From Streptomonospora litoralis (GTDB taxonomy: Bacteria; Actinomycetota; Actinomycetes; Streptosporangiales; Streptosporangiaceae): a DNA stretch of 64,000 bases. Of this stretch, positions 51,514 to 64,000 are shown piece after piece; the stretch's first letter is position 1; the number at the start of each line of letters is the position of its first letter. The notes beneath the pieces are model-generated. The model was not told where the DNA came from. It made no database searches and worked only from the letters and a program-made list of their open reading frames with translations. A program made the position numbers and the translations under genes. Location of the stretch: NCBI RefSeq assembly GCF_004323735.1, contig NZ_CP036455.1:3033101-3097100 (forward strand), in the 5' to 3' direction.

Positions 51514-51672
51514 CGCATTCCATAAGGAATTCCTTGCAGCCGGTTCGGTCGCCCCCGGTTCTCACACTGCGAAGTCGCTCGATCACCCGATCGGCGCCTT
51601 GTGCTGTGCGCCGGCTTCGCAACGGGGGCGATACGGACCTGCGACTCGTCCAACGGCACAGAAGGGCGTGCG

Positions 51673-52377
51673 ATGCTTAACAAGGACCACTCACCTTCGC
51701 CCGAAGGTTTCGCCGACATCGTCCGCTCGATGTTCGCCGAACCGGACGTGCGCGCCACCCTGCAGCGCATCGTGGACCTCGCCGTGACCACGGTGCCCGG
51801 GTGCGACTACGCGGGCGTGAGTCTTTCGGAATCGCGCAGCCGAGTGGAGAGCCCGGTCGCCACCCACGACATCGTGCGCCGCAGCGACGAGCTGCAGCGG
51901 GAACTGGGCGAGGGCCCGTCCCTGGATTCGATGTGGGAGGGGACCTACGTCTACCTGCCCGACCTCACCCTCTCCGCGCGCTGGCCCGCCTACGCCGCCG
52001 AGGCCGCCGAACTGCCCATCGGCAGCCTGCTGAGCTACCGCCTGTTCACGGCCCGCGAGACTCTGGGCGCCCTCGTCCTCTACGCCGCCCGCCCCCGGGC
52101 ATTCGGGGAACGCGCCCACGAGGTGGGGGTGATCTACTCCGCTCAGGCCGCCTCGGCGCTGGCCGCCAACCGCCGCATCGCCAACCTGAACCGGGCCCTG
52201 GACACCCGCGAGACCATCGGCCAGGCCCAGGGCATCCTGATGGAGCGCCACCACATGACGGCCGACCAGGCCTGGCAGCGGTTGCGCGACAGCTCGCAGA
52301 ACCTCAACGTCAAGCTGGCCGAGCTGGCCGAGAAGATCGCGCTGACCGGCGAGGACCCCACGGGCCCGCCCGCATAG
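51673..52377 (+). CDS. GAF and ANTAR domain RNA-binding antiterminator-type regulator
   Basis: This 234-residue protein has a GAF domain at about residues 20-150 (PGCDYAGVSLSESRS, LGALVLYA) and a C-terminal ANTAR domain at about 165-220 (NRALDTRETIGQAQGILMER, DQAWQRLRDSSQNLNVKL). ANTAR proteins bind paired RNA hairpins and prevent termination; the GAF domain senses a small ligand. The ATG at 51673 has AGAAGGG upstream. It is monocistronic and convergent with the GT2 genes. The target RNAs are unknown. Confidence 0.87.
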   Translation: MLNKDHSPSPEGFADIVRSMFAEPDVRATLQRIVDLAVTTVPGCDYAGVSLSESRSRVESPVATHDIVRRSDELQRELGEGPSLDSMWEGTYVYLPDLTLSARWPAYAAEAAELPIGSLLSYRLFTARETLGALVLYAARPRAFGERAHEVGVIYSAQAASALAANRRIANLNRALDTRETIGQAQGILMERHHMTADQAWQRLRDSSQNLNVKLAELAEKIALTGEDPTGPPA

Positions 52378-52438: not shown

Positions 52439-53350
52439 TCAGCCGACGTAGCGCCGGGCGGTGGAGCGACGCTGCGGCTCCTCCAGCAGCCGCAGCCCTT
52501 CCTCGACCCGGTGCGGCACCGGACGCCGCTGGGACAGCACCCACGGCAGTCCGGCCAGCGCGTCGGCCACCGCGGCGGCGCTCGCCCCGTCGGCGGGCAC
52601 CGAGGCGAGCACCGCGGCGGTTCGCCGCAGCGCCGCCGGCGCCGGGCGGCGCAGCCACGCGGTCCACAGCGTGTTGCGGATGCCCAGCCGACGCCGGCCG
52701 GTGCTGTCCCTGCCGCGCGAGGGGGCGTGGTGCACGCGCAGGTCCTCGATCCAGCACAGCCACCACCCCGCGGCCGCCAGGTCCAGCGACAGCAGCTCCT
52801 CCTCCCCGCCCAGCCACAGCCGCTCGTGGAATCCGCCCGCGGCCAGGAACGCGTCCCTGCGCAGCACCGAGGCGCCGGCGAGGATGCTCAGCAGCGCGGG
52901 GCCCGGCAGATGCGGCGGTGCCGGGACCGGGGAGCCGCGCAGTTCGGGGGTGATGGGGTCCTCGCGCAGTGCGGGCTCGACCAGGATGCGCGCCGTGAGC
53001 GAGGCGACGTCGGGATGGTCGTCGAGCAGGTCGGCGGCGCGCGACAGGGAGCCGGGCTCCCACCAGGTGTCGTCGTCGCAGAAGGCCACATAGGGGGTGC
53101 CCAGCGCCTCGGCGCCGAGGTTGCGCCCCACCGCCCCCAGGTTGGCCCGGGCGCGCAGCAGCGCCACTCCGGGGAACGACGCCGCCACGGCCGCGGCGCT
53201 GCCGTCGGTCGAGGCGTTGTCGACGACCACCGTCGGCGGGCTCTCCGGCAGCGCGGCGAGCCGCTCCAGCACGTGCAGCAGCTCCGCGCGGCGGTCGCGG
53301 GTGATCACGACCACGCCCACCCGCGGATCGGGCGCGCGCACGGCGCTCAC
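52439..53350 (-). CDS. Glycosyltransferase family 2, second of a tandem pair
   Basis: This 303-residue GT-A fold transferase has VGVVVITRDRRAELLHVLER, nucleotide-binding TVVVDNASTDGS and metal-binding FCDDDTWW, and later LGGEEELLSLDLAAAG. Its GTG overlaps the stop of the upstream GT2 by four bases. The two are paralogues with the same motif order, suggesting sequential transfers onto one glycan. No membrane helix is predicted. The acceptor is unknown. Confidence 0.87.
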   Translation of the reverse strand: MSAVRAPDPRVGVVVITRDRRAELLHVLERLAALPESPPTVVVDNASTDGSAAAVAASFPGVALLRARANLGAVGRNLGAEALGTPYVAFCDDDTWWEPGSLSRAADLLDDHPDVASLTARILVEPALREDPITPELRGSPVPAPPHLPGPALLSILAGASVLRRDAFLAAGGFHERLWLGGEEELLSLDLAAAGWWLCWIEDLRVHHAPSRGRDSTGRRRLGIRNTLWTAWLRRPAPAALRRTAAVLASVPADGASAAAVADALAGLPWVLSQRRPVPHRVEEGLRLLEEPQRRSTARRYVG

Positions 53351-54276
53351 CGGCGCTCCAGCAGGCGCAGATCCTCTTCGACGCGTCGCGGCAGCCGTCG
53401 CCGCTGTACCAGGGCGCGGGGCAGGTCGCCGAGCAGGTCGGCGAACGCGCCGCGGGCCTCGGGCATCCGGCGGGCGGCGCGCGCCAGGTGCCACGTCTCC
53501 GCCAGTGCGCGCCCGGCGGGGCGCCGCAGCCAGCACACCAGCGCGCGGTTGCGCATGTCCAGCCGGCGGCGCCAGGCGCTCGGCGGGCGGTCGGGTGAGG
53601 GCGCGTGGCGGGCGTGCACCTGCGCCAGGTGGCAGGCGTCCCAGCCCAGTGCGGCCAGGTCCGCAGCCAGCAGGGCCTCCTCGTGGGTGAAGAACAGCAG
53701 GCGGCTGAAGCCTCCGGCGGCGCGGAACGCCTCGCGGCGGACGACCGCGGCGCAGGCCAGAAAGCCGAGCACGCGCGGCCCCGGCAGGTCGGGCGGTGCG
53801 GGGGCCAGCCCGGTGGCCAGCTCGGCGTTGATGGGGTCGGGGCGCGCGGAGCTGCCGACGAAGGTGGAGGCGGCGACCAGGCCCAGGCGCGGATGGGCGT
53901 CGAAGGCCGCGGCGGCGCGCTGCAGGGAGCCGGGCGCCCACCAGGAGTCGTCGTCGCAGAAGGCGATGTAGGGGGCCGGGTTGGCGGCGACGCCGGCGTT
54001 GCGCGCGGCGGCGCCGCGGTTGCGGGGCAGCGCCACGACCGAGACACGGGGGAACTCCGCCCGCACGAAGGCGGCCGTGCCGTCGCGCGAGGCGTTGTCG
54101 ACCACGGTCACCGGCGAGTCGGGGTGGTCCCGGCCAAGCCGGAGCAATGTGCGGGCAAGCTCGCGGCGGCGGTCCCGGGTGGCCACCACCACGCCCACCC
54201 GGTCGCCGCCCGCGCCCGCGCCGCCCGGGTCGCCTCCGTGCGCGCGTGGTCCGACCGCATCCGCCCTATCGCCCAC
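53347..54276 (-). CDS. Glycosyltransferase family 2, first of a tandem pair
   Basis: This 309-residue transferase has VGVVVATRDRRRELARTLLR, TVVDNASRDGT, AFCDDDSWW and FTHEEALLAADLAALG, paralogous to the next gene. The GTG at 54276 is chosen because AAGGAGGGGAGG lies eight bases upstream; open sequence upstream has no such signal. It is divergent from the sigma-factor gene. Confidence 0.85.
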   Translation of the reverse strand: MGDRADAVGPRAHGGDPGGAGAGGDRVGVVVATRDRRRELARTLLRLGRDHPDSPVTVVDNASRDGTAAFVRAEFPRVSVVALPRNRGAAARNAGVAANPAPYIAFCDDDSWWAPGSLQRAAAAFDAHPRLGLVAASTFVGSSARPDPINAELATGLAPAPPDLPGPRVLGFLACAAVVRREAFRAAGGFSRLLFFTHEEALLAADLAALGWDACHLAQVHARHAPSPDRPPSAWRRRLDMRNRALVCWLRRPAGRALAETWHLARAARRMPEARGAFADLLGDLPRALVQRRRLPRRVEEDLRLLERR

Positions 54277-54664
54277 CTGCCGTGCCTCCCCTCCTTGCGA
54301 AAAACCGGCCCGGCACACCTCCGGGAAAGCCGTGAATGATATTTCCGACATCCGGCGACCGACCGCATCCACCGCGTCTACCCTGCTGCTTCGTAATCTC
54401 ACGCGTTAATTCGCCGCAAAACCGGGATCGGTCGGGCCGACGCGGGTTGGCTTAATCGCGCATATCTCGATATGGTCAATGTTGTTGTGCAGGAGGTCCG
54501 ACAGCGCGGCCTATGACGCCACTACGTGCGTCCCGGCTCCCGCTGCGGTGCACGACCGCACAGAAGCTCGGGGGAGTACATCACCGGCGCGCGGCACAAC
54601 GCGCCGGACGATCCGGGAGGCAGGTGGTCGGCGGTCAACTCCGACGCAGCGAGGAACGTTAGCG
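54277..54664. other. 388-bp divergent region between GT2 and sigma-factor genes
   Basis: It contains the inverted repeat CATATC-TC-GATATG (54461-54474) and relatively A/T-rich sequence at 54340-54480. This is presumably the promoter region of both genes. No gene is seen. Confidence 0.4.
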
Positions 54665-55519
54665 ATGAACACATCGAGCGCGCTCCGCGAACGAGAGACC
54701 GCAGTACCGCGTCCGCGCAGTTCCCGTGGTGGAGGCCACCACGGGAACAGTAAAACCGACGAAGCCTACTACGCCCGCACTCGCGAGCTGTTCGCGCAGC
54801 TCAAGAGTGGTGAGACGGGGCCGGCCGAGCACGAGGAGATCTATCGGAACCTGGTGGATCTGCACGCTCCGGTCGTCCGCCGCATCGCCCGCCGCTACCG
54901 CAATCGCGGCGAGCCCGAGGAGGACCTGCGCCAGGTTGTGACAGTCGGCCTGGTCCAGGCGATCCGCGACTTCAAGCCCGACTACGGCAAGGAGTTCATC
55001 TCCTACGCCCTGCCCATGATGACCGGTGAGGTCAAGCGCCACTTCCGGGACCGCACATGGGCGATTCGGGTGCCGCGCAAGTATCAGGAGAAGCGGCCCG
55101 AGCTCAACCGGGTGACCTCGTCGTTCGCCCAGGAGCACGGCCGTTCGCCGACGGTCGCCGAGATCGCCGAGCGGCTGGAGATGAGTGTCGACGACACTCT
55201 GGAGCTGATCGACGCGTCCTCGGCCTACAGCGCCCTGTCCCTGGACGTGCCCTACGGGGCCGAGGAGGAGGACAAGACGCTGGGGGACACGCTCGGCGAG
55301 GAGGACCACGAGCTGGAGAACGCCGCCGACCGGGCGTCGTTGCGTCCGGCGCTGGCCACCCTCTCGCCGCGCGACCGGCGGATCGTGCTCCTGCGCTTCG
55401 CGGGGAACAAGACCCAGGCCGAGATCGCGCAGATCGTGGGTCTGTCTCAGATGCACGTCTCGCGGACGCTCTCGGCGTCCCTGGCCAAGCTGCGCAAGCA
55501 GCTCGTCCCGGACGTGTGA
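54665..55519 (+). CDS. SigB/SigF/SigG-family RNA polymerase sigma factor
   Basis: This 284-residue protein has region 2 (DLHAPVVRRIARRYRNRGEP, DLRQVVTVGLVQAIRDF), region 3 (RSPTVAEIAERLEMS) and region 4 (LSPRDRRIVLLRFAGNKTQA, QIVGLSQMHVSRTLSASL). It belongs to the stress/development group usually controlled by anti-sigma and anti-anti-sigma partners, none of which is adjacent. The ATG at 54665 is preceded by GAGGA. The position between two glycan gene groups suggests it may control surface-glycan genes, but this is not shown. Confidence 0.92.
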   Translation: MNTSSALRERETAVPRPRSSRGGGHHGNSKTDEAYYARTRELFAQLKSGETGPAEHEEIYRNLVDLHAPVVRRIARRYRNRGEPEEDLRQVVTVGLVQAIRDFKPDYGKEFISYALPMMTGEVKRHFRDRTWAIRVPRKYQEKRPELNRVTSSFAQEHGRSPTVAEIAERLEMSVDDTLELIDASSAYSALSLDVPYGAEEEDKTLGDTLGEEDHELENAADRASLRPALATLSPRDRRIVLLRFAGNKTQAEIAQIVGLSQMHVSRTLSASLAKLRKQLVPDV

Positions 55520-55653: not shown

Positions 55654-56652
55654 TCAGGCCCGGCCCGCGGTCGGCTCGGCCGCGCGCCCCTCTTCTTCCC
55701 GCCGTTGTGCCGCGGCGGCGAACCACTCCACCGTCAGCCGCAGCCCTTCCTCCATCGGCACCCGCGGCCGCCACCCCAGCGCCTGGGCCGCCAGTGTGGT
55801 GTCGGGGCGGCGGAACCGGGGATCGTCGGCGGGGCGTCCGACCTGGACGACGGGCGACTCCGAGCGGCAGACGCCGCGCACCAGTTCGGCCAGTCGGCGG
55901 ATGGACAGCTCGTAGGGGCTGCCGATGTTCACCGGACCGGTGATGTCGGCTCCGGCCAGCGCGATCAGGCCGCGCACCGTGTCGTCGACATAGCAGATCG
56001 AACGGGTCTGCATGCCGTCGCCGGACACGGTAATGGGTTCGCCCGCCAGCGCCTGGCGGATGAAGGTGGGGATCGCCCGCCCGTCGCCGGGGCGCATCCC
56101 GGGCCCGTAGCTGTTGAAGATCCGGGCGATTCCGACGTCGGCGCCGTAGGCCCGGTGGTAGGCCATGGTCAGCGCCTCGGCGTAGCGCTTGGCCTCGTCG
56201 TAGACGCTGCGCGGACCGACCGGGTTCACGTTGCCCCAGTAGCTCTCGTGCTGGGGGTGGTGCAGCGGATCGCCGTAGACCTCGCTGGTGGAGGCCAGCA
56301 CGGTGCGGGCGCCGTGCTCGGCGGCCGCGTCCAGCGCGTTGCGGGTGCCCCGGCTGCCGGCCTCCAGCGTCTCCACCGGCAGCCGCAGGTAGTCGCGCGG
56401 CGAGGCCGCCGACGCCAGGTGGAAGACCGTGTCGACGCGGCCGGGCACGCGCAGCCCCAGCGTGACGTCGGCCTCCAGGGCGCTGAACCCGCTCCGCCCG
56501 GCGAGGTGGCGCACGTTCTCGGCGGAGCCGGTGGCGAAGTTGTCGACGCAGACCACCTCGGCGCCGCCGTCCAGCAGCCGCTCGCACAGGTGCGAGCCGA
56601 TGAAGCCGGCGCCGCCGGTGACGACGGCGCGGCCGATCCGTGCCTGGCTCAT
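55654..56652 (-). CDS. NAD-dependent sugar epimerase/decarboxylase, UDP-xylose-synthase-like
   Basis: This 332-residue extended SDR has NAD motif TGGAGFIGSHL, catalytic YDEAK, and the UXS-type segment IARIFNSYGPGMRPGDGRAI followed by GDGMQTRSICYVDD. UXS enzymes convert UDP-glucuronate to UDP-xylose. It is not of the HldD heptose-epimerase pattern. The ATG at 56652 has a G-rich ribosome site. It ends the glycan operon on the reverse strand, 40 bp after the SDR gene. Confidence 0.85.
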   Translation of the reverse strand: MSQARIGRAVVTGGAGFIGSHLCERLLDGGAEVVCVDNFATGSAENVRHLAGRSGFSALEADVTLGLRVPGRVDTVFHLASAASPRDYLRLPVETLEAGSRGTRNALDAAAEHGARTVLASTSEVYGDPLHHPQHESYWGNVNPVGPRSVYDEAKRYAEALTMAYHRAYGADVGIARIFNSYGPGMRPGDGRAIPTFIRQALAGEPITVSGDGMQTRSICYVDDTVRGLIALAGADITGPVNIGSPYELSIRRLAELVRGVCRSESPVVQVGRPADDPRFRRPDTTLAAQALGWRPRVPMEEGLRLTVEWFAAAAQRREEEGRAAEPTAGRA

Positions 56653-56692: not shown

Positions 56693-57379
56693 TCAGGGCC
56701 ACGACGTCTCCTCGGAGGGGCATACGACGATTTCCCGCACCTCGCACCCGAGGGGCTGTGCCAGGGCGAAGACGACGGCCCGGGCGACGTGCTCGGGCGG
56801 GTTGAGGCGGGCGTCGGGACCCGGCCGGTAGGTCTCGGGGCGGCCGTCGAAGAAGGCGGTGTCCATGCCGCCGGGCAGCAGCAGCGTGACCCCGACGCGT
56901 CCGGCGGTCTCGGCGGCCAGCGCGCGGGTGAACCCCATCACCCCGGCCTTGGAGGCGCAGTAGGCGGTGGCGTCGGGGACGGCGCGCACGCCCAGCGTGG
57001 AGGCGCAGTCGACGACCGTGCCGCGGGTGGCCTCCAGGTGGGGCAGGGCGGCGCGCACGACGGAGGCGGTGCCGACGAGGTTGACTTGGACGACCCGCTC
57101 CCAGTCGTCGGGGTCGACCTTGTCCAGGGGGCCGCAGGCGTCGGTGCCGGCGGCGTTGACGACGGCGTGCAGCCCGCCCGCGCGCTGCGCGAGGTTCTCC
57201 ACGGCGTTCTCCGTGGCGTGCCGGTCGCCGAGGTCGACGCGTTCGTGGTCGGCCTCGACGGCGGGCTCGGCGATGTCCAGAACGAGCGGTCGGCCCCCTT
57301 CGTCGGCCACGGCGCGGGCCACTGCGGCGCCGAGTCCGGAGGCGCCGCCGGTGATCAGGGTGTTGCCGAGTGGACGCAT
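56693..57379 (-). CDS. Short-chain dehydrogenase/reductase
   Basis: This 228-residue classical SDR has cofactor motif TGGASGLGAAVA, NAAG (VVNAAGT), catalytic Ser in VDCASTLG and YCASK. The ATG at 57379 has GGGGAG upstream. Within the heptose/glycan operon it could oxidise or reduce a sugar nucleotide or lipid. No specificity can be assigned. There is a 98-bp gap to HldE upstream. Confidence 0.85.
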   Translation of the reverse strand: MRPLGNTLITGGASGLGAAVARAVADEGGRPLVLDIAEPAVEADHERVDLGDRHATENAVENLAQRAGGLHAVVNAAGTDACGPLDKVDPDDWERVVQVNLVGTASVVRAALPHLEATRGTVVDCASTLGVRAVPDATAYCASKAGVMGFTRALAAETAGRVGVTLLLPGGMDTAFFDGRPETYRPGPDARLNPPEHVARAVVFALAQPLGCEVREIVVCPSEETSWP

Positions 57380-57477: not shown

Positions 57478-58851
57478 TCAGGGCGGGGTGCGGTCGCGGG
57501 CGGCGACCATCCGGCTGGTGGAGCGTCCGGGCAGCAGCGGCAGGATGACCGCCTCCCCGCCGACGGCGGTCACGGCGGACAGTTCGGGCAGCTCCGCGGC
57601 GGTGTAGTCGCCGCCCTTGACCCACACGTCGGGGCGCAGCCGCTCGACCATGCGGGCAGGGGTGGGCTCGTCGAAGACGGTGACGGCGTCGACGCAGTCC
57701 AGGGCGGAGAGCACCCGGATGCGGTCCTCGGCCGCCGTCACGGGGCGGCCCGGCCCCTTCTGCGCGCGCACGGCGGCGTCGCCGTTGAGGCAGACGACCA
57801 GGCAGTCGCCCAGCGAGCGGGCGCGGCGCAGCAGGCTGACGTGGCCGGCGTGCAGGACGTCGAAGCAGCCGCCCGCGGCGACCACCTTGCCGCCGCTGCG
57901 GCGCACGCGCTCGGCCAGAGCCTCGGCGCTCTCCCCCAGGCCCAGCGGCAGCGCCCCGGCCATGGGGCCCGATGCCGCGGCCGCACCGGCGGCCCCGTTG
58001 CGCACGAAGCGGGAAGCCGCCTGGACGCTTTCGCCGACGGCTCCGGCTGCGTCGGCCCCGCCGCGCAGCGCCGCAGCGGCGGCGCCGCTGAAGCGGTCGC
58101 CGGCGCCGCAGGCGTCGGCGCGGGCCAGGCGCAGCGGTGCCGGAAAGAACCGGGCCGGCTGCCGCGGGCCCGCCAGTACGGCGCCCTCGCTGCCGAGGGT
58201 GACGGCGACCGATGCGGCCCCCCATGTGCCGGCCAGGCGCGCGGCGGCGGCGCCGGCGGCGTCGGGTTCGGCCGCGCCGGCCTCTGCGGCGTTGGGGGTG
58301 ACCAGGGCGGCGCCGGGCACGGGTGCCGCTCCGCGCGGGTGCGGGTCCCACACCAGCGGTACAGCGGCGGCGGCCCGGGCCAGCGCGGCGCGCACGGCGG
58401 GCAGGTCGGCCACGCCGCGGCCGTAGTCGGCGACGAGCACGGCACCGGCCCGTTCGACGGCGGTGACCGCGCGGTCGTCGACGCCCGCGGGCGCGGGCCG
58501 GCCCGCGCCCTGGTCGACGCGCACGACCGTGCGGTCCGCGTCGCGGATGCGGGACTTCGTCGGCGTCGCCCCGCGCTGGGGCAGGCGCAGCAGGGTCAGC
58601 GAGTCGTGCAGCAGCGCGGCGACGCGGTCGCCGGCGGCGTCCTCGGCCAGCGCGCAGACCAGCACGACGGGGTGTCCGTCGCGGGCGGCCAGCCACGCGG
58701 CCAGGGCGGCGCCGCCGGGGCGGTGCCAGGCCGAGGGCGCGTCCAGTACCGGTGCGTCGCCGCCGTGGCCCCCGCCGCGGTGCACTCCGGCGACGTCGAT
58801 GTCGAGGAAGGCGTCGCCCACCACTACCAGCGGCCCCGGGGCGCGGCTCAC
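57478..58851 (-). CDS. hldE: Bifunctional heptose-7-phosphate kinase / heptose-1-phosphate adenylyltransferase
   Basis: This 457-residue two-domain enzyme has an N-terminal PfkB/ribokinase domain (about 1-310) with anion hole DACGAGDRFSG, and a C-terminal nucleotidyltransferase (about 325-455) with GGCFDVLHAGHVSLL (HxGH motif) and DVWVKGGDY. HldE phosphorylates D-glycero-D-manno-heptose-7-P at C1 and later adds a nucleotide to the heptose-1-P. The GTG at 58851 overlaps the gmhA stop by four bases. With GmhA upstream and GmhB further up the operon the pathway is complete. Confidence 0.9.
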   Translation of the reverse strand: MSRAPGPLVVVGDAFLDIDVAGVHRGGGHGGDAPVLDAPSAWHRPGGAALAAWLAARDGHPVVLVCALAEDAAGDRVAALLHDSLTLLRLPQRGATPTKSRIRDADRTVVRVDQGAGRPAPAGVDDRAVTAVERAGAVLVADYGRGVADLPAVRAALARAAAAVPLVWDPHPRGAAPVPGAALVTPNAAEAGAAEPDAAGAAAARLAGTWGAASVAVTLGSEGAVLAGPRQPARFFPAPLRLARADACGAGDRFSGAAAAALRGGADAAGAVGESVQAASRFVRNGAAGAAAASGPMAGALPLGLGESAEALAERVRRSGGKVVAAGGCFDVLHAGHVSLLRRARSLGDCLVVCLNGDAAVRAQKGPGRPVTAAEDRIRVLSALDCVDAVTVFDEPTPARMVERLRPDVWVKGGDYTAAELPELSAVTAVGGEAVILPLLPGRSTSRMVAARDRTPP

Positions 58852-59441
58852 GCGGCGCCCTCCCGGGCCGGCCGCCGCTGCCGCGGCGCCGCGGGCACGG
58901 CGCAGACCGCGTCGACCTCCTCGCACATCAGATGGATCAGCGAGAGGTGGACCTCCTGGACCGTGGCCGTGTCGGGCGAGGGCACGGCCAGGGTCTCCTC
59001 GCAGGCGGCCTGCAGTGCGCTGGGCTCGGCACCGGCCATCGCCCAGGTGCGCAGCCCCAGCTCGCCGGCCGTGACCGCGGCGGCGACGACGTTCTCGCTG
59101 GCGCCGCTGGTGGACAGGCACACCAGGACGTCGCCGGGGCGCGCGTGGGCGCGCAACTGGCGGGCGAAGACCTCGCGGTAGCCGTAGTCGTTGGCGATGG
59201 CGGTGAGGCTGGAGGTGTCGGCGTGCAGGCAGATCGCCGAGAGGGGCGTGCGCTCGGTGCGAAAGCGGCCGGTCAGCTCGGCGGTGAGGTGCTGCGCCTC
59301 GGCCGCGCTGCCCCCGTTGCCGCAGGCGAAGAGCCGGCGGCCGCACGGCAGGTGTTCGCCGAGGAAGCGCCCCCACCGCTGGACCTGTTCGCCGTCGACG
59401 CCCTCCAGCGCGGTGCTGAGCCGTCGGAGCCGGGGATGCAT
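58848..59441 (-). CDS. gmhA: Sedoheptulose-7-phosphate isomerase
   Basis: This 197-residue SIS-domain protein matches GmhA along its length: GNGGSAAEAQHLTAELTGRF, then SLTAIANDYGYREVFARQL, LVCLSTSGASENVVAAA. It makes D-glycero-D-manno-heptose-7-phosphate from sedoheptulose-7-phosphate. The ATG overlaps the upstream transferase stop (TGATG at 59443-59439). Confidence 0.9.
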   Translation of the reverse strand: MHPRLRRLSTALEGVDGEQVQRWGRFLGEHLPCGRRLFACGNGGSAAEAQHLTAELTGRFRTERTPLSAICLHADTSSLTAIANDYGYREVFARQLRAHARPGDVLVCLSTSGASENVVAAAVTAGELGLRTWAMAGAEPSALQAACEETLAVPSPDTATVQEVHLSLIHLMCEEVDAVCAVPAAPRQRRPAREGAA

Positions 59442-60685
59442 CAGACACCTCCCGTGGTGGGCACGGCGGCCGCGCCGGTGGGCCGGTGCGCCTCGCGGCC
59501 GCGTTCGAGCAGCACGCTCTCGTAGCACTGCTCGGTCTGGCGGGCCACCAGCGGCCAGGTGTAGCGCACCGCGGCGCGGTCGGCCCCGGCGATGGCCAGG
59601 CTCTCCCGGGTGACGGGGTCGGCCATCAGCATCCGGATCCAGTAGGCCAGCGTGCGGGCGTCGCGCGGCGGGACCAGGCGGCCGGTGACGCCCTGCACCA
59701 CGGTGTCGAGATGGCCGCCGACGTTGGAGGCGATCACGCAGACACCGCAGGCCATCGCCTCGACGGTGCTCATGCCGAAGGGCTCGTACCAGGGGACGTT
59801 GACGCAGAGGTCGGCCGAGCGCAGCAGCCCGGGCACCTCCGATCGCGGCACGCCGCCGGTGAAGGCGACGCGGTCGGCCACGCCGGCTTCCTCGGCGGCC
59901 GCCCGCAGTCCCGCGATGTGGGGATCCGCGTCCATCCGCTCGGGTGCGGCGCCGCCGGCGACGACGAGTTCGGCCTCTGGGACCCCGGCCAGCGCGCCGA
60001 TAAGGGTGCGGATGCCCTTGCGGGGCACGATCCGGCCCAGGCTGAGGATGCGGAAGCGCTCCCCGCGCTCGGCGGACCGGCCTTCGGGGCGGAACAGCTC
60101 CGGGTCGACGGCGCAGGGCACCACTGTGATGCGCCGGGAGTCGACGTTCCAGGAGCGCAGCTCGCGCCGTTCCAGCGACGAGGTGGCGACGACGCGGTCG
60201 ACGCGGCGGGCGACGTCGGCCTCGACTTGTTCCCGCTCGGAGGGGCTGGTGTCGTCCTCGCCCTGGTGGCGGCTCTTGTCGACGCCCAGGGCGTGGAAGG
60301 TCTGCACGACGGGCGTGCCGGTGGCCCCGCCCGCCTCCAGTGCGGCGCTGCCGCTCATCCAGTAGTGGGCGTGGGCGATATCGGGGCTGCTGCGGCTCCA
60401 CTCGGCCCGGAGGTGCTCGGCGAACTCGCCCATGTGCGGCGGGAGTTCGTCCTTGCTCAGCGGCCGCGGCGGTCCGGCACTGACGTGGTGCACCCGCACG
60501 CCGGGTGCGAACTCGACGGTCTCGGGGTCTTCGGCCCGCGTCCGGCGGGTGTGCACCGTCACCTCGTGGCCGCGGGCGCCCAGGGCCCGGGCCAGATCGG
60601 CGACGTGCACGTTCTGCCCGCCGGTGTCCTCCTCGCCGAGCAGGGCCAGCGGGCCGGCGTGTTCGGAGACCATGGCGATCCTCAC
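59441..60685 (-). CDS. Glycosyltransferase family 4
   Basis: This 414-residue GT-B transferase has N-terminal EEDTGGQNVHVADLARAL (a pattern shared with sucrose-synthase-like GT4 enzymes), nucleotide-binding ILSLGRIVPRKGIRTLIGAL and catalytic EPFGMSTVEAMACGV. The GTG at 60685 follows AGGAGGTGACACG and overlaps the previous stop by four bases. It is likely to transfer a sugar from a nucleotide donor onto the growing glycan. The specific donor is unknown. Confidence 0.88.
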   Translation of the reverse strand: MRIAMVSEHAGPLALLGEEDTGGQNVHVADLARALGARGHEVTVHTRRTRAEDPETVEFAPGVRVHHVSAGPPRPLSKDELPPHMGEFAEHLRAEWSRSSPDIAHAHYWMSGSAALEAGGATGTPVVQTFHALGVDKSRHQGEDDTSPSEREQVEADVARRVDRVVATSSLERRELRSWNVDSRRITVVPCAVDPELFRPEGRSAERGERFRILSLGRIVPRKGIRTLIGALAGVPEAELVVAGGAAPERMDADPHIAGLRAAAEEAGVADRVAFTGGVPRSEVPGLLRSADLCVNVPWYEPFGMSTVEAMACGVCVIASNVGGHLDTVVQGVTGRLVPPRDARTLAYWIRMLMADPVTRESLAIAGADRAAVRYTWPLVARQTEQCYESVLLERGREAHRPTGAAAVPTTGGV

Positions 60686-61707
60686 CGTGTCACCTCCTGG
60701 AGTAGCCGGTCCCAGTCGCCGAGGAACCGGTCGATGGAATACCGGCGCAGGGCCGCCGCACGCGCGGCCCGGCCGCACTCGGCGGCGCGGGCCGGGTCGC
60801 ACAGCAGCTCGCGCAGCGCGCGGCACAGTGCGTCGACGCCGGTCGTCGCCAGACCGGCATCGGGGGGGATCGCCTCGCGGGCCTCGGTGGCGGCCAGAGC
60901 GAGGACGGGCATGCCCAGCAGCATGGCCTCGATGAGCGAGAGGCCCAGCGAGGTCCAGCGCAGCGGGTGCAGATAGACGCGCCTGCGCGCGAGTTCGGCG
61001 TGCAGGCGGTGCTGGGGCAGGTCGTCATAGGGGCGCAGCTGTTCGGCGGACAGGCCGAGTGCGGCGGGCGCGTCGGCCACTCCCATGCCGAACAGGTCCA
61101 GGGGCGCCGCGCCGGCGAAGCGGGGCAGCAGGTCGGTGCCGGTGACACGGCCGCGGCGCAGCGGCTCGTTGATCACCACCCCGGCGCGCTCCACCTCCCC
61201 GGTGTAGCGGTGGCCGGGATCCACCACGCCGTGCTCGACGACGGCCGTGGGGGCGCGGCCGCAGTCCCAGAACAGCTCGTTGAAGTGGGTCACGTGCACG
61301 ACGGGGATGTCGGAGCGTTCGGCAAGGGGGTGGCGCGTGCGGGGCACATCCCCTTGGGGAGCGTTGTGCTCGACGTAGACGGCGGGCACGTCGCGGCCGG
61401 GGCGGCGTCCGCCGAGCCACCGCTGTGCCAGCTCCAGCTCGTGGGGGCGCTGCAGCACGACGGCGTCGACCGGTTCGGCGGCGAGGTGCTCGGGGGCGAC
61501 CTCTACGGCGTTGGCGGGCCAGGTCCAGGTGTCGGCGCGGCCGCGGCCGTCGGGGCCGCGGTCGGCGTCGGCGGGCAGCAGGCAGCGGTGGCGCCCCTGC
61601 ACGAAGGACGTGGTCCAGGAACCGTGCACGTGCCAGAGCAGGATCCGCAGCGACGGCGCCGGGGGCCCGTCGTGCTGCGCTGTGGTGAGCTGCTGCTGCA
61701 GGGTCAC
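60682..61707 (-). CDS. GT-B glycosyltransferase (family 1/4-like)
   Basis: This 341-residue protein starts ILLWHVHGSWTTSFVQGRHR, a motif seen in actinobacterial glycosyltransferases of such heptose clusters, and has the C-terminal donor site WTSLGLSLIEAMLLGMPVLA. It is somewhat short for GT-B, though both halves are visible. Both ends overlap neighbouring genes, so it is translated as part of the coupled block. Confidence 0.83.
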   Translation of the reverse strand: MTLQQQLTTAQHDGPPAPSLRILLWHVHGSWTTSFVQGRHRCLLPADADRGPDGRGRADTWTWPANAVEVAPEHLAAEPVDAVVLQRPHELELAQRWLGGRRPGRDVPAVYVEHNAPQGDVPRTRHPLAERSDIPVVHVTHFNELFWDCGRAPTAVVEHGVVDPGHRYTGEVERAGVVINEPLRRGRVTGTDLLPRFAGAAPLDLFGMGVADAPAALGLSAEQLRPYDDLPQHRLHAELARRRVYLHPLRWTSLGLSLIEAMLLGMPVLALAATEAREAIPPDAGLATTGVDALCRALRELLCDPARAAECGRAARAAALRRYSIDRFLGDWDRLLQEVTR

Positions 61708-62759
61708 GGCGGTCCTCCGGCGAGCTCGTCGACGGCGGCGAGGACGTCCGCCGGGGTCACGCTGTTCAGGCAGGGGTGCCCGGGCACGGGGCAGGTGCGC
61801 GCCCGAGTGCCGCGGCAGGGGGCGTCCTGGTCGCCGAGGACGCGCACCGGGCTTCCCCGCGGGGCCCACGAGGAGGCCGAGACCACCGGCGCGAACAGCG
61901 AGACGACGGGCGTGCCCACCGCGGTGGCCAGGTGCGCGGCCCCGGTGTTGCCGCTGACCAGGACCGATGCACCGGCCAGCACGCCCGCGAGCTCTGCCAG
62001 GCCGGTGCGCCCGCCCAGGTCGCGGGCCGCGGCGCCGGCCACGGCCGCGGTGTCGCGGCCCTCCGGTGCGCCTCCGGTGACCACCACGCGGCGGCCCTGG
62101 GCGGCGAGCGCGGCCACGGTGTCCTCCGCGAGCGGCCGCGGGATGGCGCGGGCCGGTGCCGAGGCCCCGGCGTGGAGGGCGACGTAGCCGGGGCCGCCCG
62201 CCAGGTGCGCGGTCTCGGGCAGCGGGCCGCGGATGCGCGGCGCACCGTCGTCGCCGGGCGGCAGCCGGTAGCCGGCCGCCTCGGCCAGGTGCAGCATGCG
62301 CTCGGCTTCGGGACGGGTGTGGTCGGTGCGGTGGCGCAGGTTGAGCAGGGAGCCCGGGTAGTCCTCGCAGGCCGCCCCGATCCAGCCTACGCCGGCCAGT
62401 CGCAGCAGGGCCGCCAGCGGCAGCGGCGACTGGTGGAAGGAGGTCAGGATGAGCGCGGCGGCGGGGTCCTCGGCCCGCACGGCGGCGATGAGGTCCTCGG
62501 CGCTTCGCGGCGTCAGCGCGGGCGGCTCGGGGTCGATCCAGGGCGCGCACCACTGGAGCACCCGGTCGACGCCCGGCAGCAGGTCGGCGGCGGCGCGTCC
62601 GCGGGGGCCGGCGAGCAGCACGAGGCGGTCGGCGCCGCCGGCCGCGGCGCGCACGGCCGGGCCGGCGAGCAGGACGTCGCCGACGTTGTCCATACGCGCC
62701 ACCAGCACGGTGCCGCCGCGCGGCGCCGGGGCGCCTTCACCGGTTCCGGGCGCGCTCAT
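61704..62759 (-). CDS. Glycosyltransferase family 9 (heptosyltransferase family)
   Basis: This 351-residue GT9 protein has N-terminal VLVARMDNVGDVLLAGPAVR and C-terminal SGNTGAAHLATAVGTPVVSL, signatures of ADP-heptose:LPS heptosyltransferases. In a Gram-positive without LPS, with GmhA/HldE/GmhB beside it, it probably moves heptose from an NDP-heptose onto a cell-surface or secreted glycan. It overlaps the fusion gene upstream by four bases. Confidence 0.88.
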   Translation of the reverse strand: MSAPGTGEGAPAPRGGTVLVARMDNVGDVLLAGPAVRAAAGGADRLVLLAGPRGRAAADLLPGVDRVLQWCAPWIDPEPPALTPRSAEDLIAAVRAEDPAAALILTSFHQSPLPLAALLRLAGVGWIGAACEDYPGSLLNLRHRTDHTRPEAERMLHLAEAAGYRLPPGDDGAPRIRGPLPETAHLAGGPGYVALHAGASAPARAIPRPLAEDTVAALAAQGRRVVVTGGAPEGRDTAAVAGAAARDLGGRTGLAELAGVLAGASVLVSGNTGAAHLATAVGTPVVSLFAPVVSASSWAPRGSPVRVLGDQDAPCRGTRARTCPVPGHPCLNSVTPADVLAAVDELAGGPP

Positions 62760-64000
62760 CGTGCACTCCCGCGCAGCAGGCGGCGCACGGCCGAGGTCAG
62801 CCGGGCGGCGGTCTCGGGCGCCGCCGCCGTCTCCGCAGGCCGGGTCGCCGGGCCCGGGACCAGGACGGCGCGGGCCCCGGCGGCCCGGGCGGCGTCGACG
62901 TCGGCGCCGATGTCGCCGATGACCGCGCACTCCTCGGGTGCCACGCCGAGTTCGGCGGCGGCGGCGTCGACGAGTCCCGGCCGGGGTTTGCGGCAGGCGC
63001 AACCGTCGTCGGCGCCGTGGGTGCACACGGCCCAGACGTCGAAGGGGCCCAGTCGCCCCTCTACCTCGGCGTTGACGGCGTCGAGCTGTTCGGCGGCGAT
63101 GAACCCGCGGGCGACGCCGGACTGGTTGCTGACCACACCCAGGCGCAGTCCGGCGGAGCGCACGCGCCGCAGGGCGCGCCGCGCTCCGGGCAGCGGCCGG
63201 ACACGGTCGGGGTCGGCGTTGTAGGCGACGTCGTACACGAGCGTGCCGTCGCGGTCGAACAGGACGGCCTTGACGGGCCGGTCGGCGTGCGGAAGCGCGC
63301 CGCGGTGGCGCCACTCCCCCAGCAGCCGCTGCGCGCAGGCCGCGGGCGGGATGAGGACGCTGGTGACCGCCATCCGCACGACCTCGTCCGCGCTGCGCGG
63401 CCCCGGCGCGATCCGCCGCCAGGCGAATTCGGCGGTGGCCGCGAACCAGAGCAGGCCCAGTCCGGCGGCGAGGCCGCCGCCGAGCCGCGCGGTGCGTGCG
63501 GGCGCCGCGGGCGGGTCCGCGAGCCGCCGACCGGCGACGCGGACACGCCCGGAGGCGGGAGGCCCGTGGTGCGGCCGTCGTCCGCGCGCCGCGCCGGAAG
63601 CGCCGACCGCGGCGACCGCGCCGGCCAGCGCGGCGGTGGTGAGGACGTGGCGCGGCAGCCGTCCGGGCGGCTCGCCGACGCGTTCGCGCCAGTTCGGCCC
63701 GTGCCGCCGCATCAGCGCGTCGTCGGCGTTGCCGGCCTGGGCGGCGACGCTGCGCAGGAGCCGGTCGTCGCGCACCACCGGGTGCACGCTGCGCCGCGTG
63801 CCGGTGACGAGTCCGTAGCCGGCGTCGAGCACCCGCAGCGCGATGTCGGTGTCTTCGCGGTAGGCCCGCTTGAACCGGCGGTCGAAGCCGTCGACGGCCT
63901 CCAGCGCGGAGCGGCGGTAGGCCATGTCCGCGGTGATCCAGGCCGCGCCAGCCAGGGCGAGCGTTCCCCGCTCGGCGTCGGTGGGGCGCCGACCGGCAGG
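62756..64000 (-). CDS. GT2 glycosyltransferase-GmhB heptose-bisphosphate phosphatase fusion (5' end beyond window)
   Basis: The frame is open to the right edge; at least 414 residues are visible. The N-terminal visible part is the end of a GT2 domain (AAWITADMAYRRSALEAVDG, YREDTDIALRVLDAGYG), then a linker with a possible membrane segment (LGGGLAAGLGLLWFAATAEF). The C-terminal 180 residues are a HAD phosphatase of the GmhB type: VLFDRDGTLVYDV, GVVSNQSGVARG and the zinc loop CTHGADDGCACRKPRPG. GmhB removes the C7 phosphate of heptose-1,7-bisphosphate between the two HldE steps. Fusion to a transferase is unusual. Confidence 0.87.
   Translation of the reverse strand, partial: PAGRRPTDAERGTLALAGAAWITADMAYRRSALEAVDGFDRRFKRAYREDTDIALRVLDAGYGLVTGTRRSVHPVVRDDRLLRSVAAQAGNADDALMRRHGPNWRERVGEPPGRLPRHVLTTAALAGAVAAVGASGAARGRRPHHGPPASGRVRVAGRRLADPPAAPARTARLGGGLAAGLGLLWFAATAEFAWRRIAPGPRSADEVVRMAVTSVLIPPAACAQRLLGEWRHRGALPHADRPVKAVLFDRDGTLVYDVAYNADPDRVRPLPGARRALRRVRSAGLRLGVVSNQSGVARGFIAAEQLDAVNAEVEGRLGPFDVWAVCTHGADDGCACRKPRPGLVDAAAAELGVAPEECAVIGDIGADVDAARAAGARAVLVPGPATRPAETAAAPETAARLTSAVRRLLRGSAR

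Follow-up and report, generated by a model that had tools for sequence, protein, structure and literature searches.

The closest described relative of the locus treated here is the cwg operon of Streptomyces coelicolor (SCO6179-6190), which, in the available portions of the published accounts, comprises 12 genes, is induced by vancomycin partly through sigmaE and is predicted to make a cell wall glycan. The literature since 2002 has named it as a target of cell-wall stress in Streptomyces, and its product is left undefined in the extracts of the literature examined. SCO6180-6183 are listed as cwgB-E and SCO6185-6188 as cwgG-J, with cwgH as a phosphoheptose isomerase and cwgI as a bifunctional enzyme (PMC5839063, in extract); cwgE has been labelled a putative heptosyl transferase (PMC5882110, in extract). 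The name cwgF is supplied here.

A gene cluster of this kind was analysed in a stretch of 64,000 nucleotides from Streptomonospora litoralis (contig NZ_CP036455.1, hereafter the window). Its gene content, its correspondence to cwg and the intact motifs of its enzymes were observed directly. We consider it probable, at roughly three chances in four, that the cluster is a version of the cwg operon that makes an envelope oligosaccharide with heptose, pentose and carbamoyl groups. Operons of this kind are known; what is new is the Streptomonospora member, with its gene fusion, an added short-chain dehydrogenase/reductase (SDR), moved ends and predicted sugars. The coordinates below are window positions; additional upstream sequence was handled as locus L003, whose numbering is that of the window minus 51899. 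The genes, with glycosyltransferases abbreviated as GT, are as follows.

66044..64392, minus strand: carbamoyltransferase (CARB), upstream and beyond the window, with a 1-bp gap before GT2-GmhB
64390..62756 (within the window 62756..64000), minus strand: GT2-GmhB fusion, equivalent to cwgC plus cwgD; its start lies outside the window
62759..61704, minus strand: GT9a, heptosyltransferase-family glycosyltransferase, equivalent to cwgE (PF01075, 54.4 bits, cut-off 22)
61707..60682, minus strand: GTx, glycosyltransferase of GT-B fold in the cwgF position (PF00534; model pLDDT 90.4, GT4-type PDB neighbours)
60685..59441, minus strand: GT4 glycosyltransferase related to MshA and sucrose-phosphate synthase by profile and structure matches, equivalent to cwgG
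59441..58848, minus strand: GmhA, sedoheptulose 7-phosphate isomerase homologue by Pfam, motif and structure matches, equivalent to cwgH
58851..57478, minus strand: HldE homologue, heptose 7-phosphate kinase / heptose 1-phosphate nucleotidyltransferase by Pfam and motifs, equivalent to cwgI
57379..56693, minus strand: classical SDR with TGGASGLG and YCASK motifs, the usual HldE neighbour outside Streptomycetaceae
56652..55654, minus strand: EPI, UDP-glucuronate decarboxylase / UDP-xylose synthase (UXS)-like, equivalent to cwgA (UXS1 structures, 317 bits)
54479..55519, plus strand: SigB-type sigma-factor-like gene, named by eye, opposed and lying between EPI and the two GT2 genes
54276..53347, minus strand: GT2b glycosyltransferase, start codon uncertain (one gene caller chose 54402)
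53350..52439, minus strand: GT2c glycosyltransferase, overlapping GT2b
C1:3106310-3107482, about 7 kb upstream of CARB: GT9b, a second GT9 and a member of the same conserved set

An earlier note on the window had described the six genes from GT2-GmhB to HldE as an operon with overlaps of 1-4 bp. The genes are real, all on the minus strand, and the overlaps are exactly as described (4, 4, 4, 1 and 4 bp in succession from GT2-GmhB to HldE). The extent was drawn too short: the conserved unit has about 12 genes and includes CARB, the UXS-like gene and the second GT9. Pfam domains scored above cut-off in each of the six proteins and likewise in the other cluster proteins. The reported GT9 of the heptosyltransferase family is confirmed by PF01075 in GT9a, to which GT9b can be added, and these two are the only PF01075 matches in the whole genome. 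The protein taken for a GT1 is GTx; a CAZy GT1 assignment was dropped, as PF00534 and the model, which resembles GT4-type GT-B enzymes, place it elsewhere.

Correspondence with the cwg operon

The comparison with S. coelicolor was made through a genome bearing the published cwgA promoter rather than through the S. coelicolor genome by name. The 29-mer of this promoter was found once, in one of 392 genomes of a single genus taken to be Streptomyces, and a row of 12 co-directional genes begins 148 bp past its 3' end (locus L136). In order, these encode EPI, CARB, the GT2 half, the GmhB half, GT9, GTx, GT4, GmhA, HldE, GT9b and two GT2 proteins, and all 12 are matched by the Streptomonospora set at 46-68% identity. 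The printed labels agree with this order at positions 5 (cwgE), 8 (cwgH) and 9 (cwgI). The gene at position 4 encodes a GmhB-type phosphatase, which the printed label of cwgD, a putative dehydratase (PMC5839063, in extract), does not fit. In S. coeruleorubidus (locus L126) the same 12 genes are preceded by a similar promoter at -149 and accompanied by a divergent polysaccharide deacetylase gene, and sco6178 is described, in the part of the literature available, as a divergent polysaccharide deacetylase beside cwg.

All 12 encoded functions are present in Streptomonospora, and the order CARB-GT2-GmhB-GT9-GTx-GT4-GmhA-HldE is identical. Unlike cwg, the Streptomonospora cluster has GmhB fused to GT2, carries an extra SDR, has its two GT2 genes beyond the opposed sigma-factor-like gene and is bordered upstream by a ClpC-like gene instead of a divergent deacetylase gene. 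The gene set and the collinear core of cwg were both found, whereas its sigmaE-type promoter was not. Related clusters in Streptomyces had been mentioned in the earlier note, but the cwg operon had not been recognised among them.

Enzymes of the predicted heptose pathway

A complete enzyme set for nucleoside diphosphate (NDP)-heptose had been claimed for this locus, and homologues of GmhA, HldE and GmhB are indeed all present with their motifs intact. In GmhA, GNGGSAAEAQHL-AEL is kept together with the QEVH region, and the best match to a solved phosphoheptose isomerase has an E of 4.7e-41. The GmhB domain retains DRDGT, SNQSG and CTHGADDGCACRKP (from the translation) and matches solved GmhB. 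In the fusion protein, an N-terminal GT-A/GT2 domain is joined by a helical linker to a C-terminal HAD phosphatase of the D,D-heptose 1,7-bisphosphate 7-phosphatase type. Its structure model has a pLDDT of 90.7, and the HAD part compares with solved GmhB at a TMt of 0.79-0.83. Long helices lie between the two domains in this model, by which contact with the membrane may be possible. A membrane-bound GT2-GmhB was dropped as a candidate, since the hydrophobic stretch of the window protein and of its congeners in L036 and L037 is absent from seven of the nine open reading frames (ORFs) of relatives compared.

The transferase half of HldE retains GCFDVLHAGH, VKGGDY and GRSTS, and the kinase half retains GD..LD, PGGA, TxKxR, RxD, DYGxG, TPN and GAGD. 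The match of the kinase half to the heptose 7-phosphate kinase 4e84 is weak (E 7.7e-9), and conserved spots are altered (GGAAL for GGAAN, DPH for DPK, CGAGD for SGAGD). The substrate of the HldE kinase is therefore the least certain step. Compared with the ADP-heptose pathway of Gram-negative lipopolysaccharide (LPS), the three enzymes are homologous and keep their catalytic motifs; the differences include the divergent kinase domain and the Arg of the STTR5 motif.

Two commentaries on Tang et al. (Science 2024) regard the motif (F/L)XXGRSTT as characteristic of nucleotidyltransferases whose products include CDP- and UDP-heptose as well (PMC11461863 and PMC11573728, in extract). The C-terminal motif of HldE is LLPGRSTS, with Arg at the fifth position and Ser as the final residue in place of Thr, an imperfect match. 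Across 105 HldE-family ORFs, which include paralogous copies and three duplicate loci, the Arg position is occupied by Arg in 66, Tyr in 24 and His in 7, with 8 off-pattern.

NCBIfam gave no HldD-type 6-epimerase in the cluster, the rest of the genome not having been searched for one. EPI was considered for this role and dropped: it scored 60.3 bits against a cut-off of 274.6, compared with 317 bits to UXS.

Distribution and variation among actinobacteria

HldE relatives were found in 27 of 60 genomes in a sample of relatives (E 1e-30), among them four of the five other congeners, and in 45 of 396 genomes of the phylum (E 1e-60); both counts include the genome itself and cover HldE alone, not the cluster. 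For the cluster, 100 loci were compared, 20 from the 34 HldE places and 80 among the matches listed (97 distinct, with three duplicate pairs). All were chosen for HldE, many are cut by contig ends, and the tblastn hits may include paralogues. Matches per 100 loci were: GmhA 97, GT4 89, GT9 86, GmhB 80, SDR 80, GT9b 80, EPI 79, GTx 76, CARB 75, GT2 73, GT2c 37 and GT2b 32. CARB, GT2, GmhB, GT9, GT4, GmhA and HldE stood together in 48 of the 69 loci of at least 19 kb, which indicates that the association is not due to chance. Genera in which the gene set was seen, among the matches listed, include Streptomyces, Amycolatopsis, Nocardia, Mycobacterium and Actinomadura.

Two features were absent from the Streptomycetaceae loci. 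The GT2-GmhB fusion was found in 45 of the 68 loci having both domains (the window locus, L136 and one duplicate included) and in none of 14 Streptomycetaceae loci. Members of the SDR family occur in 67 of 84 loci from outside Streptomycetaceae, against 0 of 16 from within it (assignment by record title; a few loci end close to HldE), and in four genomes of the genus taken to be Streptomyces no SDR exceeds 44% identity. Where HldE is followed by a further gene in non-Streptomycetaceae loci (80 cases), that gene belongs to a single SDR family in 64. This constancy would fit a pathway in which NDP-heptose is an intermediate only, converted by the SDR and other enzymes to another sugar, so that the product contains no heptose. 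We regard such a conversion as unlikely: Streptomyces clusters keep the rest of the set without the SDR, and two genes of the GT9 heptosyltransferase family are retained.

A UDP-glucose dehydrogenase match was obtained in 27 of 100 loci, lying beside GT9b in Mycobacterium, Nocardia and Amycolatopsis (L059, L066, L071, L118, L122 and others). This is consistent with a linked dehydrogenase making UDP-glucuronate, the UXS substrate.

The loci do not form one uniform system. Six of them (L053, L082, L089, L110, L111, L121) are without CARB and EPI and carry a second HldE; all but L053 are from Curtobacterium, Amnibacterium and Arthrobacter. L050, L077 and L132 retain little of the gene set. The second type of heptose cluster, in the same six loci, also carries an aldehyde dehydrogenase, with a further GT9 in L053, L082, L089 and L111. 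L100 (VBHQ01000129.1, labelled a Chloroflexi metagenome-assembled genome) has the genes from CARB to HldE plus GT9b, by horizontal transfer or misbinning. A polysaccharide pyruvyl transferase match (family F13; L060, L068, L073 and others) was seen in 18 of 102 loci and possibly represents further decoration.

That Nocardia, Amycolatopsis, Mycobacterium and Actinomadura loci carry the same set points to an envelope component of wide occurrence. More tentatively, envelope oligosaccharides of a class not yet described, with glycero-manno-heptose, pentose and carbamoyl groups, might be common to actinobacteria from Streptomyces to mycobacteria and be made on a phosphorylated acceptor in the cytosol; this remains a doubtful extension. 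With heptose, UDP-xylose and carbamoyl steps recognised as conserved, the "putative cell wall glycan" acquires named sugars for which a search can be made. Mammalian ALPK1 has been reported to sense NDP-heptoses (PMC11461863 and PMC11573728, in extract), and the cluster bears on sources of these compounds outside Gram-negative bacteria.

Predicted product, export and regulation

In the proposed pathway, sedoheptulose 7-phosphate would be isomerised, phosphorylated, dephosphorylated and activated to NDP-heptose, while EPI would provide the pentose donor, either UDP-xylose or a relative of it. In the cytosol, as many as seven glycosyltransferases (three GT2, two GT9 and two GT4-type) could then assemble a small oligosaccharide of defined structure, the heptosyl transfers probably falling to the GT9 enzymes. 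CARB would cap the oligosaccharide, and unlinked machinery would carry it to the cell envelope. The heptose, the pentose and the carbamoyl group are predictions; we infer the sugars, their order, the acceptor, the export and the envelope location.

EPI matches UXS structures at 316.9 bits to 4gll, with the next family at 142.6, and patterns of the STSEVYG- and YDExKR-type are present in 76 and 77 of 78 EPI family members. GT9a belongs to GT9 by Pfam. Its match to LPS heptosyltransferase structures is weak, and its scores lie below the NCBIfam cut-offs for LPS heptosyltransferases I, II and III (41.7/185.3, 38.6/134.6 and 35.0/170.2 bits).

GT4 is closest to sucrose-phosphate synthase (6kih, 232 bits) and to 3c4q (169 bits), which we take to be MshA; its top NCBIfam model is MshA, below cut-off. 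Sucrose-phosphate synthase and MshA use phosphorylated soluble acceptors. In at least 79 of 86 GT4 orthologues a Lys is kept at what is presumably the acceptor-phosphate position of MshA, and the matching Tyr of an MshA-like pocket is Phe in 76 of 86. With Lys kept and Tyr mostly replaced, an MshA-like acceptor-phosphate pocket may exist in GT4, which is a lead from sequence. The hydropathy scan gave no clear membrane protein among the cluster products, only short stretches in GT2-GmhB, GT9, GTx and GT9b. The acceptors of these GT4 relatives, the lead and the scan would all suit an oligosaccharide made on a soluble acceptor or on a protein inside the cell rather than a surface polymer. This is rather improbable in our judgement: the Phe speaks against the pocket, five LCP-family genes and one PF02397 transferase gene elsewhere in the genome could serve export, and the regulation of cwg in S. 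coelicolor, in the accounts available, points to the envelope.

CARB belongs to the family of the novobiocin, GdmN and TobZ carbamoyltransferases, its closest solved relatives, all of which tailor antibiotics. The sugar genes of bleomycin presumably bring an RfaE-like nucleotidyltransferase together with a GT9 and a carbamoyltransferase. A specialised metabolite that is secreted and carries a carbamoylated sugar derived from heptose, on the model of septacidin (cited as an NDP-heptose product in Streptomyces in the available part of PMC11461863), shares with our cluster the use of NDP-heptose in an actinomycete, predicted here, yet is decidedly improbable: the cluster has a multi-glycosyltransferase set, no antibiotic scaffold gene was recognised among its annotated genes (a search that did not extend to the rest of the window), recurrence in so many genera suits a structural role, and the vancomycin induction of cwg stands against it.

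Several observations count against the preferred reading, that of a cwg-type operon making an envelope oligosaccharide. GmhA, HldE and GmhB all lie under NCBI curated equivalog cut-offs: GmhA at 164.2 bits (cut-off 209.45), HldE at 209.5 (521), its transferase domain at 172.7 (181.5), its kinase domain far below at 76.4 (345) and GmhB at 107.3 (178). Their names therefore rest on homology and conserved motifs and not on proven equivalogs. The pairing with cwg is not strict at gene 11 of L136 (GT2c 212 bits, GT2b 204), and EPI has moved to the 3' side with GT9b about 7 kb off. The donor specificities of the glycosyltransferases are beyond what sequence can tell. No transporter, flippase, polymerase, ligase or lipid-initiating gene was found among the annotated cluster genes, single unlabelled neighbours having been left unannotated. 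With the LCP-family and PF02397 genes placed elsewhere, export would have to use unlinked machinery, and here the reading is at its weakest. In the available part of a 2024 paper on wall glycopolymers of Streptomyces (PMC11481543), teichulosonic acid and a polydiglycosylphosphate are named, and neither heptose nor cwg is mentioned. As to regulation, the 420 bp in front of CARB contain no strict sigmaE-type site, either in the window genome or in four relatives. A relaxed pattern gave, within 300 bp, scattered matches in the window genome (-275), L035 and L037 and none in L036 and L040, with no shared position.

The earlier note had called the product uncharacterised, and this stands: no definition of the cwg glycan was found in the available parts of PMC5839063, PMC6767563, PMC13011467, PMC3902916, PMC5882110, PMC11481543, PMC3123327, PMC10771440, PMC11461863 and PMC11573728, although Hong 2002 and Tang 2022 (tridomain synthetases) might say more. 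Its description as a surface or secreted glycan would fit by analogy with cwg only.

SigmaE control of the window operon was dropped, there being no strict site and only scattered relaxed matches. In nine Streptomyces loci checked, some with uncertain start codons, only the site of L126 aligned with the published one, so this site does not define the family. No Rfam family reached its gathering threshold in L003, and an RNA element was also dropped. A 30-base element, GTTTSAG-N4-GCTKCGWYTGGTAGTYGAC, is nearly invariant in five genomes. It lies at G000:C1:3099228-3099257 (minus strand), about 85-115 bp upstream of CARB and just outside the window, and with up to three mismatches it occurs once in the genome and 0 times in the control; it is perhaps a candidate promoter or operator.

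The arrangement with the opposed sigma-factor-like gene recurs in L035, L036, L037, L039 and L040. At 51601..52377 on the plus strand, a translation judged by eye resembles a GAF-ANTAR regulator.

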